From Mucilaginibacter agri (GTDB lineage: Bacteria; Bacteroidota; Bacteroidia; Sphingobacteriales; Sphingobacteriaceae): a stretch of 64,000 nt of DNA. The notes beneath the pieces were generated by a model that saw only the letters and a list, made by a program, of their open reading frames with translations, did no database searches and had not been told where the DNA came from. Below are positions 8,588 through 16,585 of this stretch, piece by piece. The translations under genes and the position numbers were made by a program. Within the stretch, counting starts at the first letter, position 1; each line of letters begins with the position of its first letter. The DNA lies in assembly GCF_009928685.1 (NCBI RefSeq), contig NZ_WWEO01000043.1, forward strand, positions 248,001 to 312,000. The letters are read 5' to 3'.

Positions 8588-8612
8588 CAAACATTTTTAA
8601 TTGATAATACTG

Positions 8613-10097
8613 ATGATGGATTTGGTACTTCCGGATAAAGCACATGACGAGAGCAGACAGGGTGAAGCTTTAATGCTGGAAACTAAGGCTGATAAAAATG
8701 GCCGTAAGCTGTACATTGAGAGCTATGGCTGCGCCATGAATTTCTCCGACAGCGAGATCGTAGCATCTATCCTTTTGGATAAAGGTTTCGAAACCACCAA
8801 TGATTTTACAATTGCAGATGCAATTTTTATAAATACATGTTCTATTCGCGAAAATGCGGAAGTGCGCGTACGTAACCGCCTGAAAGAATTTAAGGTTGCC
8901 AAACAACGTAACCCGGGTATGGTGGTAGGTGTATTGGGCTGCATGGCCGAACGCCTGAAATCGAAATTTTTAGAAGAGGAAAAGCTGGTTGACATTGTAG
9001 TAGGCCCCGATGCTTATCGCGATTTGCCTAACCTGATAGAGCAAGCCGACGGCGGCCAGCGTTCTGTAAACGTGTTGCTGTCGCGCGAAGAAACATATGC
9101 CGATATTAATCCGGTTAGGTTAAATACCAATGGTATCAACGCCTTTGTATCTATTATGCGTGGCTGCGATAACATGTGCTCGTTCTGTGTAGTACCTTTT
9201 ACCCGCGGCCGCGAGCGCAGTCGCGATGCCATATCTATTGTAAAAGAATGTACCGATCTGTTTAACGAAGGTTACCGCGAGGTTACTTTATTAGGGCAGA
9301 ATGTGGATTCATATAAATGGAAGGCTGCGGCCTCACCCCAGCCCTCTCCGGAGGAGAGGGAGTTACCTGTTGAGGGCGCTTCTTCTGAAGATTTAGGTGA
9401 GGCTTCTGTTGTTAACTTTGCCAACCTGCTCGAAATGGTAGCCCAAATCAACCCCGATTTGCGGGTTAGGTTTTCTACCTCGCACCCAAAAGATATTACC
9501 GACGAGGTCTTATATACCATGAAAAAGTATGATAACATCTGTAAATACATACACCTGCCGGTACAATCTGGCAACACCCGCGTGTTGGACATTATGAACC
9601 GTACATACACCCGCGAGTGGTATATGAACCGAATCGATGCTATCAGGGAAATACTTCCGGGTTGCGCCGTGTCAACCGATGTGATTACTGGTTTTTGTAC
9701 CGAAACGGAGGAAGAGCACGCCGAAACGTTAAGCATGATGGATTATGTGAAATATGATTTTGCCTATATGTTTATGTACTCTGAGCGTCCCGGAACTTTG
9801 GCAGCAAAACGCTACGCTGATGATATTCCAGAGGATGTGAAAGCTCGTCGCTTAAACGAAGTCATTGCTAAACAAAGGGAGCACGCGCATTTGCGCTTGT
9901 TAGAAAAAATTGGTAAGGTACAAAAGGTGCTGATTGAAGGTTATTCAAAAAAATCGGCTAACGACTATTGCGGAAGAAGCGACGAGAACTCGATGGTTAT
10001 TTTCCCGGTCGACGAACGCTTTAAACCCGGTCAATACGTAAATGTGCTTGCTGAACGCTGTACCACAGCTACTTTGATGGGTAAGATTGTTGATTAG
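8613..10097 (+). CDS. miaB: MiaB, tRNA-2-methylthio-N6-dimethylallyladenosine synthase
   Basis: Radical-SAM methylthiotransferase that adds a 2-methylthio group to i6A37 of tRNAs reading UNN codons. The N-terminal UPF0004 domain carries its three cluster Cys ([25 protein letters not shown]). The radical-SAM motif CDNMCSFC follows near residue 190, and a C-terminal TRAM region ends the protein. I chose ATG 8613 (494 residues); a TTG 12 bases upstream in frame is also possible, as is ATG 8616. A linker of about 30 residues ([13 protein letters not shown] and onwards) between DSYKWK and NFANLLEMV is not normal for MiaB. It is encoded by a palindromic repeat at 9330-9403, and the frame stays open through it. 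Confidence 0.96.
9330..9403 (+). repeat. Palindromic element inserted in frame within miaB
   Basis: A 74-base stretch starts with GCCTCACC (9330-9337) and ends with its reverse complement GGTGAGGC (9396-9403). An inner dyad, CCCTCTCC-gga-GGAGAGGG, spans 9342-9360. The same words occur as an intergenic half-element at 38388-38420. The stretch encodes a low-complexity Pro/Ser/Glu peptide in MiaB, where relatives have only a short linker, so it looks like a repeat insertion tolerated in a surface loop. Confidence 0.75.
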
Positions 10098-10099
10098 TT

Positions 10100-10580
10100 G
10101 AGGGAATCAGGAATCGAGAATCAAGAATCGGGACAGAAAAATGCCAGTAAGACACAATTTCAAGAATCTGAAGGTTTGGCAAAAGGCAATGGATCTGGCT
10201 GATTTGGTATTCGAGTTTTCTAAAGGATTGCCCGTGATGGAAAAGTATAATTTAATCGATCAGATTAACAGATGTTCGGTATCAATTCCTTCAAATATTG
10301 CTGAAGGGAGCGGAAAACGGACAAACGTACATTTTGCAGAATTTTTGTCTACATCGATCTCGTCATCGTATGAATTGGAAACCCCGTTGATTATTTGCGA
10401 GCGTAGAGGTTACGGTTCCGTGGATGTGCTGAGAAGCGTATTCGAATTGTTAGGTGAAGTTCAAAAGATGCTTTTCAACTTTCGTGAATATATAGTAAAC
10501 GACAAAGAGTTATCTGAAGTCAAATCTTAATTGTTATTGAACAGAGTCCCGATTCTTGATTCCCGACTCTTGATTCTCTC
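10100..10580 (+). mobile_element. Intervening-sequence-like element: terminal inverted repeats around a four-helix-bundle gene
   Basis: Bases 10100-10135 and 10544-10580 are near-perfect inverted repeats about 36 bases long; the inner 18 bases (GAATCAAGAATCGGGAC on the left) match exactly. They enclose only the gene at 10141-10530. The transcript would fold into a long stem closed over the gene, as in intervening sequences of bacterial 23S rRNA. The right end stops 2 bases before the ATG of the sigma-54 activator, and the left end begins 2 bases after the miaB stop. Solo copies of the repeat words occur elsewhere in the window. Confidence 0.65.
10141..10530 (+). CDS. Four-helix-bundle protein (23S rRNA intervening-sequence protein family)
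   Basis: 129 residues, nearly all helical. It begins with the family signature FKNLKVWQKAMDLA, and the hallmark SIPSNIAEGSGK is near residue 55. This is the S23/IVP family of small pentameric four-helix bundles, found in intervening sequences of 23S rRNA and related to Avd of diversity-generating retroelements. The molecular role of most members is unknown. Here it sits inside a pair of long inverted repeats between miaB and a sigma-54 activator, an interval that elsewhere in the block is tight, so it looks inserted. No reverse transcriptase or variable-repeat pair is seen, so an Avd role is not supported. Confidence 0.88.
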   Translation: MPVRHNFKNLKVWQKAMDLADLVFEFSKGLPVMEKYNLIDQINRCSVSIPSNIAEGSGKRTNVHFAEFLSTSISSSYELETPLIICERRGYGSVDVLRSVFELLGEVQKMLFNFREYIVNDKELSEVKS

Positions 10581-10582
10581 TT

Positions 10583-11827
10583 ATGGACGTACAAGAAATA
10601 AAACAACGCTTCGGTATCATTGGCAATTCGCCATTGCTTAACCGGGCTATAAGCATAGCCAGCCAGGTGGCGCCTACGGATATATCAGTACTGATAACCG
10701 GCGAGAGCGGCAGTGGTAAAGAGGCTTTTTCGCATATTATACACCAGCTTAGTCCGCGTAAGCATGGGCCGTTTATTGCGGTAAACTGCGGCGCGATACC
10801 TGAAGGTACTATAGATTCAGAGCTTTTCGGTCACGAAAAGGGAGCCTATACTGGAGCCATCGGCGAACGTAAAGGTTACTTTGAGACGGTGAATGGCGGT
10901 ACTATATTTTTAGATGAGATAGGTGAGATGCCATTAGGTACTCAAGCCCGTTTGCTGAGGGTATTGGAATCAGGCCAGTTTATCCGTGTGGGTTCATCAA
11001 AAGTAGAGAAAACTAACGTGCGGGTAATTGCTGCCACCAATGTGGATGTTTATGACGCCGTTAAAGCAGGTAAATTTCGCGAAGACTTGTACTATCGATT
11101 AAATACTGTGCCGTTGCGTATACCGCCTTTGCGCGATAGAAAAGAAGATGTTTACCTGCTGTTCCGCAAGTTCGCATCAGATTTTACTGATAAATACCGC
11201 ACTCCCCCAATGCAGTTGGATGACGATGCACAACGTGTGCTCTCCAATTACTCGTGGCCGGGAAACGTGCGTCAGCTTAAAAATATTGCAGAGCAACTGG
11301 CCGTGTTAGAGCGCGACCGTACCATCACCGGTGCAACGCTGTTGAACTATATCCCCCAGGAGGGAAGCGGCTCAAACCTGCCGATGCGCATAGGAAATCA
11401 GCCTAAAGAAGATTTCTCCGAAAGAGACATTCTATACAAGGTGCTTTTTGACATGAAGCGCGATATGGTTGAACTAAAAAAACTGGTGGCAGATATGATG
11501 GAGCATGGTGGTAGTTCGCCAAACTATGCCAACCATTCGCAGACTATCAGTCAGTTGTACAGGGATATCGAAATTCCTAACAATCAGGATGCACAATTTA
11601 CTTTGCAGCAGCCCGTTACTGTAAATAACAGCAGCAACGGCAGTAACGAATCTTTTATAACCACGCATGCCGAGGAGGTAGAAGAGTCTTTATCGTTAAT
11701 AGAAAAAGAGTCGGACCTGATACGCAAGGCATTAAAGAAACATAAGGGTAAACGTAAACTGGCCGCCAATGAACTGGGTATATCAGAACGTACCTTATAC
11801 CGAAAAATTAAAGAACTAAATTTATAA
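10583..11827 (+). CDS. Sigma-54-dependent transcriptional activator without receiver domain
   Basis: 414 residues. The AAA+ domain starts almost at the N-terminus: Walker A GESGSGKE at residues 40-47, the sigma-54 contact loop GAYTGA at 87-92 (Tyr in place of the usual Phe), Walker B FLDEIGE near 109-115, and the R-finger region FREDLYYRL. A Fis-type helix-turn-helix closes the protein (RKLAANELGISERTLYRKIK). There is no phosphoacceptor or GAF domain, so activity must be set by the linker (residues 270-370) or by expression. It overlaps nothing but is followed after 2 bases by lptE. A sigma-54-like promoter before groES makes groESL a candidate target. Confidence 0.92.
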   Translation: MDVQEIKQRFGIIGNSPLLNRAISIASQVAPTDISVLITGESGSGKEAFSHIIHQLSPRKHGPFIAVNCGAIPEGTIDSELFGHEKGAYTGAIGERKGYFETVNGGTIFLDEIGEMPLGTQARLLRVLESGQFIRVGSSKVEKTNVRVIAATNVDVYDAVKAGKFREDLYYRLNTVPLRIPPLRDRKEDVYLLFRKFASDFTDKYRTPPMQLDDDAQRVLSNYSWPGNVRQLKNIAEQLAVLERDRTITGATLLNYIPQEGSGSNLPMRIGNQPKEDFSERDILYKVLFDMKRDMVELKKLVADMMEHGGSSPNYANHSQTISQLYRDIEIPNNQDAQFTLQQPVTVNNSSNGSNESFITTHAEEVEESLSLIEKESDLIRKALKKHKGKRKLAANELGISERTLYRKIKELNL

Positions 11828-11829
11828 GC

Positions 11830-12354
11830 ATGTTCAAAGCAAGGGCACTATTTTCTATTGTCGCCATCGTTATATTGTGTTGTATAAGCCAATCGTGCGC
11901 ATACCGGTTGGATGGGATATCTATACCAGCGGGATTAAAAACCATCAACGTAGAGTATTTCGAAAATAATGCGCCGTATGTACTAACCAGCCTTAGTCAA
12001 TCGGTTACGGAGGCAATAAAAACCCGCATACGTTCTCAAACCAGTTTAAGTATAGTAAGAGGTGAAGGCAATGCCACCATGTCTGGCAGTATTGTGGGTT
12101 ATAGCATTGGTCCGGTTGCTGTGCAGGCTACCAATACCAATACTGCGCCGCCTATTGCAAGCAAAAGCCGTTTAACTATTACGGTAAACGTTAAGTATGT
12201 AAATGATATTGATAAGAAGCTAAACTTCGAGCAATCTTTTTCACGTTGGGCCGATTTTTCGGGCGATATAGGAAGCCAGGAACAGAAGCTTGTAGCGCAG
12301 ATATTACCCGAGATAACCGAAGATATTTTTAACAAAGCCTTTGCCAATTGGTAG
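11830..12354 (+). CDS. lptE: LptE-like LPS assembly lipoprotein
   Basis: 174 residues with a lipoprotein-type signal whose Cys is residue 23 (ISQSC). The mature part has the LptE-family opening YRLDGISIPAGLKTINVEYF followed by a conserved pattern of short helix and strands (SLSQSVTEAIKTRIRSQTSL). LptE plugs the LptD barrel and helps insert LPS in the outer leaflet. The start lies 2 bases after the activator gene, so the two are co-transcribed. Bacteroidota LptE proteins are divergent, but this arrangement and sequence match that family well. The lipobox is loose at the -3 position, as is common in the phylum. Confidence 0.85.
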   Translation: MFKARALFSIVAIVILCCISQSCAYRLDGISIPAGLKTINVEYFENNAPYVLTSLSQSVTEAIKTRIRSQTSLSIVRGEGNATMSGSIVGYSIGPVAVQATNTNTAPPIASKSRLTITVNVKYVNDIDKKLNFEQSFSRWADFSGDIGSQEQKLVAQILPEITEDIFNKAFANW

Positions 12355-12375: not shown

Positions 12376-13989
12376 GTGGAGCAGCAGGTAAATGATAATT
12401 TGGCGGAAGCCTTGTGGGATGTATTAGCCAACCGGACTGATAGTGAGCTGCATGCGCAGGAATTAAAAAAGATACTTAGTCAGTACCCGCAGAGTAACCT
12501 GTTACATGTGTTACTTGCTCGTGGCGGCGATAAGCAATTAGTAAGCAATGCGTCGGTATATTACAACGGGCAATCCTTATACAGATTGGTAAACGTAAAG
12601 GAACGACTGCCCGTGGTTGCGCCAAGCCAGATTATAAATCTGGATGAGGTTGCTTTTAATACCGCACCGCTTCCAAACCCGTTGAGCGAAAAAACTTTTG
12701 CAGAATACGATCCTGCCCTAGAAGATATTGCTTTGGCCGAAGCTAATCGCCGTAAATTGGGCAGCGAGACCAACTGGGCACAGTTTACAGACGAAGAAAC
12801 TGTAAGCCAGCCAGAGGATATTGCCGCCGCGCCTAAGGTGCAAGTAAATGCAGAGCCCGAAGCTGAATCAGAAACAATAGTTGAACCCGAAATAACTGAG
12901 CAAGAAGTTGTAGCTGAAGCCGAAGCTCATATAGATGTACCGGAACAAGTTGAACCGGAGAACACCATTGAGCCCGAAGCAGAGATAAAACCTGTTGAAT
13001 CGGAATCGGTATGGAGTGATTGGCAACCAACGCCTGCCAATATCAACCCGCCGGCCGAGCCTTTGTATTATACCAATACGCAGTTAGAAGAAGTGCCCAT
13101 TGCGCACGAAAACGCACCGGCCGATCCTGTTTTATCTTCTTTGCCGGATGATCCCGAATGGCAGGCTATTCGTTACGAAGAAGAGTTTAGCGAAGGTGGT
13201 CACAGTAGCAATGGTCATCACGTGGCAGATCAACCAGCTGCAGAGGATGAAGTTTATGACGAGATTGTAGGAATCGACGATATACAGATTGCTCCGGTGC
13301 CTACGGCGAGTGATGAACCTATAGCTTCCATTACCGCAGATGAGCCTTATTATACAAATTACACCGAGCAGTTAAATACCGAAACTCCGGCTGTTCAGGA
13401 AACAGAAGAGCATCAAAAACCGGCCTTTAATCTCGAAACTCATATTACCGAAAATATTTACGCCGCTGATTACTTTGCATTTAGAGATGCGCTGGTAAAC
13501 GAGCCGGCTGCTTTACCCGAGGCAACAACTGCCGAAGACGACAAGCAAACTATGGCAAAGTATCATGATGATAATATGCCGTATTCGTTTTTGTGGTGGT
13601 TGGATAAAACGCGCAGGGAGCATTCAAATATTTATCAACCGTATGCCAAGCCTTCGGCCTTGCCAACTATTGACGAGTTAACCGAGGAGAAAGCAGAGCC
13701 TGTTTTTATCGATCCAAAGAAAAAGGAAGAGGCCATTATCGATCGCTTTATACAGGAAGAACCGCAAATAAAGCCGCCAAGCAGCGATAAACTGGATAAC
13801 GAAAACAAAGCCCGTAACAGCGCCGAAGACAGTGAAGAACTGGTAACCGAAACATTAGCCCGTATTTATATAGATCAAATGCTTTTTCACAAGGCCATAG
13901 CAACTTATAAAAAGTTAATGTTGAGATATCCGGAAAAAAGTAGTTACTTTGCGGGTCAGATTGAAAAATTAGAAAACAGAACAAACTAG
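12376..13989 (+). CDS. Acidic low-complexity protein with C-terminal TPR-like segment
   Basis: 537 residues from a GTG start (no in-frame ATG lies near the natural N-terminus). Residues 1-75 form a helical region ([20 protein letters not shown]). Residues about 130-400 are a long Glu/Pro/Ala-rich disordered linker (many EPEAE-type words). The last 50 residues ([20 protein letters not shown], then [11 protein letters not shown]) look like one TPR hairpin. No signal peptide or membrane helix is visible, so it is probably cytoplasmic. It lies between lptE (21 bases) and secG (7 bases) in the same operon. I do not recognise a functional family; a scaffold role is conceivable but not shown. Confidence 0.8.
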
Positions 13990-13996
13990 TTATAAA

Positions 13997-14332
13997 ATGT
14001 ATTTTATTTTAATTATCGTAGCCATCCTTGTATGTATCCTGTTAGGATTTATTGTACTTATTCAAAACCCTAAGGGCGGTGGCTTATCTTCAAACTTTTC
14101 TTCATCGTCTCAACTAATGGGCGTGCAAAAAACCGGTGACATCCTTGAAAAAGGTACATGGGTATTAGCAATCACTTTAATGGTATTATCATTAGCCATT
14201 AACGTAGCCGTAAAAAGCAGCTCAGTAAAAGCAGGCGGTGCTAATGAGTATCAAAATCAGATCGAAAAAGCATCAAAACCAACAGCACCAGTTAGCACCC
14301 CGGTTTTACCTCCGGCACCTGCTAAAAAGTAA
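13997..14332 (+). CDS. secG: SecG, protein translocase subunit
   Basis: 111 residues with two membrane helices (about 2-22 and 52-72) flanking the conserved cytoplasmic loop, IVLIQNPKGGGLSSNF then QLMGVQKTGDILEKGTW. SecG is the small accessory subunit of the SecYEG channel and aids the SecA cycle. The Ala/Pro-rich C-terminal tail is a common extension in Bacteroidota. It follows the acidic protein gene by 7 bases and is followed by a strong terminator at 14353, which ends this transcription unit. Confidence 0.95.
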   Translation: MYFILIIVAILVCILLGFIVLIQNPKGGGLSSNFSSSSQLMGVQKTGDILEKGTWVLAITLMVLSLAINVAVKSSSVKAGGANEYQNQIEKASKPTAPVSTPVLPPAPAKK

Positions 14333-14352
14333 GCTGAACAAAATATCAGACA

Positions 14353-14385
14353 AAAGGCTTTGGAAATTTTCCAAAGCCTTTTTTG
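14353..14385 (+). terminator. Rho-independent terminator after secG
   Basis: AAAGGCTTTGGAAATTTTCCAAAGCCTTTTTT: a GC-containing stem with complementary A and T tracts, directly after the secG stop. Confidence 0.9.
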
Positions 14386-14508
14386 TTAGGTAACATAACT
14401 GCCATGCTGGCATTGTCATGTTTTTGTAATGTGACTGCGGGATAAACCTATTGTTAAAAGTATGACAATTGTACAGCCCGAGGTGTCAATTTTTAACAAA
14501 ACGTTCAC

Positions 14509-14524
14509 TTGGCATTATTGATGC
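14509..14524 (+). promoter_or_regulatory. Candidate sigma-54 (-24/-12) promoter of groESL
   Basis: TTGGCATTATTGATGC has GG and GC exactly 12 bases apart, as required for sigma-54 (-24 TTGGCA, -12 TGC), 46 bases before the groES ATG. TGACA (14463) and TGTCA (14484) half-sites lie just upstream, where an activator could bind. No CIRCE element is present. The match is by eye only. Confidence 0.5.
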
Positions 14525-14570
14525 TGCACAAGGTGCAATAGAACTAATAAAATAAATTATAAATATAATT

Positions 14571-14861
14571 ATGTCAATTAACATTAAGCCTATTGCTGGC
14601 ACGGCCAACCGAGTGATTGTGGAGCCTGCACCAGCTGAAACAAGAACCGCATCTGGTATTTACATCCCCGAAACTGCACAGGAGAAACCTCAGAGAGGTA
14701 CTGTTGTAGCTGTATCTGAAGAAGATGGCGATGGAAAAAAATCGACCGTTAAAGTAGGTGACGTGGTATTATACGGAAAATATGGTGGCCAGGAATTACC
14801 TCACGAAGGTAAAGACTACCTGATCATGAGAGAGTCTGATATAATCGGCGTAGTATTGTAA
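14571..14861 (+). CDS. groES: GroES co-chaperonin
   Basis: 96 residues with the full Hsp10 pattern: NRVIVEPAPAETRTASGIYI (mobile loop region), the KPQRGTVVAV strand, VGDVVLYGKYGG and the final LIMRESDIIGVV. It forms the seven-membered lid of the GroEL folding chamber. It is the first gene of groESL, with 86 bases to groEL. The leader carries a sigma-54-like promoter rather than a CIRCE site, and the unit is separated from secG by a terminator. Confidence 0.98.
   Translation: MSINIKPIAGTANRVIVEPAPAETRTASGIYIPETAQEKPQRGTVVAVSEEDGDGKKSTVKVGDVVLYGKYGGQELPHEGKDYLIMRESDIIGVVL

Positions 14862-14902: not shown

Positions 14903-16585
<1,683 letters not shown>

Follow-up and report, generated by a model that had tools for sequence, protein, structure and literature searches.

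Transcription of the chaperonin operon groESL in Mucilaginibacter agri probably starts at an RpoN (sigma-54) promoter served by a receiver-less bEBP on an upstream array of TGNCA half-sites, as part of a regulon shared with other chaperone genes. With a little less confidence, we favour extending this picture to the whole class Bacteroidia: a class-wide chaperone regulon under sigma-54 and a single dedicated bEBP without a receiver, acting through a phased TGNCA array, with the master activator encoded beside lptE, secG and groESL. The groESL promoter is genuine and conserved, and belongs to a kind described before. What appears new is the phased array, which is well supported by comparison of sequences, and the assignment of an activator, which is likely. 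The window analysed is a stretch of 64,000 nucleotides, and its relevant features are the following.

8601-10097: miaB, first in the gene order up to groESL
10141-10530: 23S-rRNA-intervening-type protein (PF05635)
10583-11827, + strand: candidate activator, a sigma-54 bEBP without a receiver domain, recognized by its AAA+ domain with GAYTGA, its Fis-type HTH and synteny
11830-12354, + strand: lptE, conserved neighbour of the activator gene
12376-13989: protein without family assignment, between lptE and secG
13997-14332, + strand: secG, conserved neighbour upstream of groES
14352-14385 (about), + strand: intrinsic terminator after secG, fold -21.4 kcal/mol, z -4.7
14400-14412, + strand: upstream box TGNCA-N3-TGNCA (TGCCATGCTGGCA), a putative site for the activator; the T of the -24 TGGCA lies 110 bp downstream
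14463-14467, + strand: half-site TGACA, 47 bp before the -24
14484-14488, + strand: half-site TGTCA, 26 bp before the -24
14509-14524, + strand: TTGGCATTATTGATGC, the -24/-12 (sigma-54) promoter of groESL, with transcription predicted to start near 14535
14571-14861, + strand: groES (Cpn10)
14948-16585, + strand: groEL (Cpn60_TCP1)

The genes run in the order miaB, the 23S-rRNA-intervening-type protein, the bEBP, lptE, a 537-aa protein, secG, groES and groEL. An earlier note on this DNA had pointed to a match with exact GG-to-GC sigma-54 spacing before groES, and the window sequence bears this out: in TTGGCATTATTGATGC, GG (14511-14512) and GC (14523-14524) are separated by ten bases, the canonical -24/-12 distance. 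An element of this TGGCAC-N5-TTGC-like form at a fixed GG-N10-G, together with rpoN in the same genome (G000:C13:58933-59409, E 3e-56), fits a promoter of the sigma-54 class. The strong terminator behind secG ends the secG transcript and divides the activator/lptE/secG operon from groESL, so that groESL requires a promoter of its own. The earlier note had placed the activator in a block running into groESL; this holds for the gene order, but the terminator stands before the groES promoter. No TAnnTTTG box lies between secG and groES. The claimed lack of CIRCE also held: the repeat TTAGCACTC-N9-GAGTGCTAA is absent from the window's groES upstream, and HrcA was not found in the window's own genome.

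Among the neighbouring genes, the 23S-rRNA-intervening-sequence-type protein sits between miaB and the activator gene, and miaB has an internal stretch, at approximately 9350-9450, that resembles an in-frame insertion. The 537-aa protein gave no Pfam or NCBIfam match; its position is conserved, and its distant relatives are alignable over a short stretch only.

Judged from one genome, the groES site is weak: the M. agri genome contains 104 copies of TTGGCAYN6TG and 109 of a reversed-pattern control, and a looser sigma-54 consensus stands at chance level in the 64-kb window. Such counts would suit a fortuitous match, with groESL expressed from a housekeeping promoter or through transcripts that continue from secG. 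It is conservation across relatives that makes the site more than chance. Upstreams of groES were taken from whole genomes in many families of the class, which gave 105 distinct regions; the search zone reached up to 150 bp from the groES start codon, and expected counts came from dinucleotide shuffles. In this search of related genomes, which the earlier note had proposed, TGGCAYN7G, a form picked after inspecting the sequences, was found in 100/105 regions vs 1.9 expected. The stricter TGGCAYN6TG was present in 79/105 (0.8 expected) and TTGGCAY in 87/105 (4.4 expected). When 57 regions were aligned on the motif, the -24 core and the G of the -12 were nearly invariant, a conservation that is overstated because the alignment scored these same positions. 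The base after that G was not conserved, so the -12 'GC' of the earlier note is present in the window, but across the class its G alone is kept. A second set comprised 45 organism-named groES loci found via the activator gene (Flavobacterium, Hymenobacter, Pedobacter and others), and 43 of them had a slightly relaxed form (any base, then TGGYAYN7G). Some species are possibly common to both sets, and the second is a replicate that is not fully independent.

Other kinds of promoter gave chance counts in the same 105 groES upstreams: TAnnTTTG was found in 11 (11.1 expected) and the sigma-32-type CTTGAA, as a box count alone, in six (6.8 expected). A housekeeping promoter was ruled out for groES in the class on the former count. 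RpoN was detected in 294/296 class genomes and HrcA in 1/99, and a single region, that of genome G070, has a CIRCE-like groES site; CIRCE was ruled out as groES control in the class on the latter two counts. The conservation in both sets, the chance level of TAnnTTTG, the terminator after secG and a sigma-54-type start mapped at groES in Flavobacterium psychrophilum (PMC9723704) leave a fortuitous match extremely unlikely. Sigma-54 control of groESL, as the earlier note had proposed, is strongly supported by the class-wide conservation and that mapped start.

As natural knock-outs, genomes without detected rpoN were of little use, being two among 296. In G053 no rpoN was detected; a good -24/-12 is still present, so that rpoN is probably missing from the fragmented assembly. 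G070, one of two class genomes without detected rpoN, keeps the bEBP orthologue. It carries hrcA, grpE and the CIRCE-like groES upstream on one contig (G070:C139; L093, L418, L419), which may reflect a real regulatory switch or a foreign contig, and it was left out as proof.

Related predicted promoters precede dnaK, grpE and, less often, clpB. Across 28 genomes, with a few unusable upstreams left out, TGGYA-N6-TTG lies before dnaK in 22/25, grpE in 20/24 and clpB in 8/24, against at most 0.2 expected, for a pattern (TGG[CT]A-N6-TTG) that was relaxed after the sequences had been seen. The strict groES form TGGCAYN7G occurs mostly at dnaK only (20/27, against 2/28 at grpE and 3/26 at clpB). In the M. 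agri genome, the three sites at dnaK, grpE and clpB read TGGCACATGCATTGA, TGGCAGGATACTTGA and TGGCAAGTAAATTGA.

The promoter is accompanied by an array of half-sites. The earlier note had seen TGACA and TGTCA just upstream, and both are present (14463-14467 and 14484-14488); its coordinates (14463-14524) do not take in TGCCATGCTGGCA at 14400-14412, which is the upstream element with the best conservation. The box, TGACA and TGTCA are separated by six and two helical turns in the window, and the groES upstream holds the sole combination of box and -24/-12 on either strand of the 64 kb. Across the class, TGACA or TGTCA (TGWCA) was found upstream of the groES -24 in 99/100 sequences vs about 28 expected. 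TGNCA-N3-TGNCA, a spacing spotted by eye and counted afterwards in the same sequences, was found at 68/100 groES upstreams vs 0.2 expected, none of the other spacings between 0 and 8 being found in more than 10. The box was also found at dnaK (16/22) and grpE (6/24), and in 23/45 loci of the second set, which was examined later. Points that weigh against the preferred reading are the 32/100 groES upstreams without the exact N3 box, the more frequent use of other half-site spacings at grpE, and the choice of the box and of the relaxed promoter patterns after the sequences had been viewed.

The array is phased with respect to the promoter. Distances from the box to the -24 cluster at 45-48, 55-57, 66-70, 77-78, 87-89, 97-101 and 108-111 bp. 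The Rayleigh R was 0.85 for 94 boxes, a value not reached in 2000 uniform draws, 0.78 outside the window's own family (n=25) and, for dnaK boxes, 0.84 at 10.45 bp (n=17), all of these statistics being inflated by relatedness and set against a uniform null. Single half-sites cluster at 15-19, 25-28, 36-39, 45-50 and 57-59 bp with almost none between, and such clustering is also seen in the second set and in families other than the window's own. A period of ~10.5 bp is shared by several families and by two genes, which is expected if one protein must keep a fixed helix face relative to the polymerase. In L034, L057, L131 and other loci, the stem of the secG terminator is often made of TGTCAG...CTGACA half-sites; there, a single element may be both the terminator and the putative site of the activator.

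Alternatively, a repressor or an architectural protein distinct from the activator might occupy the TGNCA array and shape or silence the sigma-54 promoter, with the activator acting from solution or from another site. Half-sites as close as 15-18 bp before the -24, nearer than the usual enhancer, would fit such a protein, as would the groES upstream of genome G217, where the array is absent and the -24 kept. We regard this as quite unlikely, since the array recurs with the same period at sigma-54-type promoters of two genes, as expected of an activator, and no other class-wide candidate protein came up, albeit without a systematic search.

The candidate activator is the bEBP encoded at 10583-11827, whose gene ends 2.74 kb before groES. 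The earlier note's description of a receiver-less sigma-54 activator with a Fis-type HTH some 2.7 kb upstream was accurate. The protein consists of Sigma54_activat (PF00158, 228.5 bits), an AAA lid and a C-terminal Fis-type HTH (PF02954, residues 376-412), and carries the Walker A motif GESGSGKE and the GAFTGA-type loop GAYTGA in the AAA+ domain, as a bEBP should; the domain search found no receiver or other sensor domain. Its closest named match, from Pedobacter, is 72% identical. Many families keep the gene between miaB and lptE, and secG and groESL usually follow it; in several genomes groESL has been relocated while the bEBP stays in place. Every position of SERTLYRK, in the recognition helix of the protein, reaches 95% conservation or more among 105 aligned orthologues; other retrieved bEBPs have different recognition helices. 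In the 2.0 Mb genome G217 (estimated 100% complete), the orthologue (L118) is the only PF00158 protein, which leaves this assembly with no alternative bEBP for sigma-54 transcription, and the dnaK upstream there has the sigma-54-type TCGGCACGGTGATTG. The G217 groES upstream keeps TTGGCAT with a weakened -12 and no box, which counts against the neighbour acting through the array.

It is also conceivable that a different bEBP, such as a two-component response regulator, activates the sigma-54 promoter, in which case the neighbour would serve other genes and the synteny would be incidental. In favour are the roughly 12 bEBPs of the M. agri genome, each a possible activator, the terminator between the activator operon and groESL, and the separation of groESL from the bEBP in several genomes. 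Against this stand G217, where the neighbour is alone and a sigma-54-type dnaK promoter persists, and the helix, whose near-invariance would suit a site conserved throughout the class and which is unlike those of other retrieved bEBPs. Activation by a different bEBP is thus unlikely. Synteny, the near-invariant helix, the single-activator genome and the phased operator-like sites together make the neighbouring bEBP the likely occupant of the array, a candidate upstream activating sequence. The link between activator and promoter drawn in the earlier note is supported indirectly, by the same four lines of evidence.

Under the preferred reading, RpoN (sigma-54) polymerase would transcribe groESL from 14509-14524, with a start near 14535. 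The bEBP (10583-11827) would bind the TGNCA array via its Fis-type HTH at the box (14400-14412) and the half-sites at 14463 and 14484, all on one helix face, and its AAA+ ring would then open the promoter. The same sigma-54 system would serve dnaK, grpE-dnaJ and part of clpB, replacing sigma-32 or HrcA/CIRCE in the class. We infer that the bEBP activates in response to protein-folding stress. Having no sensory domain, it would presumably be held back by a partner protein, in the way that PspF is restrained by PspA.

Beyond the class, 30 groES loci belonging to other classes in the phylum were compared: CIRCE was found in 14/30, and another 12/30, all of family f78, have TGGTA[CT]-N5-TTG, a sigma-54-like promoter. 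The f78 loci (L308-L324) carry this groES promoter and other families outside the class mostly CIRCE; inspection of seven f78 loci revealed no evident N3 box. Tentatively, sigma-54 control of groESL may be older than the class, with the array added within it.

Bacteroidota make up a major part of communities in gut, soil and sea, and the system described here offers them a candidate route to chaperone induction without HrcA. Sigma-54-type starts had previously come from one species; a candidate activator and an array are now proposed. If correct, this would place another general scheme for controlling chaperones next to sigma-32 and HrcA/CIRCE, one that, unlike the textbook heat-shock schemes, would tie folding capacity to an ATP-driven activator.

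Among known systems, the activator resembles PspF in being a receiver-less bEBP with AAA+ followed by a Fis-type HTH, and it matches NCBIfam and PDB sequences over the AAA+ domain. It differs in scoring 266.8 bits where the TIGR02974 equivalog cut-off is 443.55, which places it outside PspF proper, and in its proposed targets, chaperone genes here and psp genes for PspF. HrcA/CIRCE is a negative control of groESL, with no HrcA found in the M. agri genome or in 98/99 class genomes. In Bradyrhizobium, a nitrogen-fixing symbiont, groESL3 is under NifA/sigma-54 and is one of several paralogues. Both cases would combine a sigma-54 promoter with a bEBP; here it is the usually single groESL of a whole class that would be so controlled.

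Closer parallels come from the phylum itself. In F. psychrophilum, the available text of PMC9723704 gives mapped sigma-54-type starts for groES-groEL, dnaK, grpE-dnaJ, clpB, htpG and lon. Its SM4 (sigma-54) chaperone promoters have the same -24/-12 motifs, and, judging by locus tags, a sigma-54 regulator-lptE pair is encoded close by. In that portion of the source, the pair is listed under another promoter class, activators are left unassigned and no upstream array is described; the present analysis contributes an array seen across the class, together with a candidate activator. Computed sigma-54 regulons, as presented in the available part of PMC12316311, show chaperones including GroES/GroEL enriched in Bacteroidota and cite Bacteroides thetaiotaomicron GroES as sigma-54-dependent; unlike the present work, they give no dedicated activator or operator there. 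Other B. thetaiotaomicron literature, in the text accessible to the search, yielded no sigma-54 data, and the open-licence literature searched yielded no paper assigning the activator or describing the array. The sigma-54 promoter class at chaperone genes is already known in the phylum; the upstream array and the assignment of an activator appear new.
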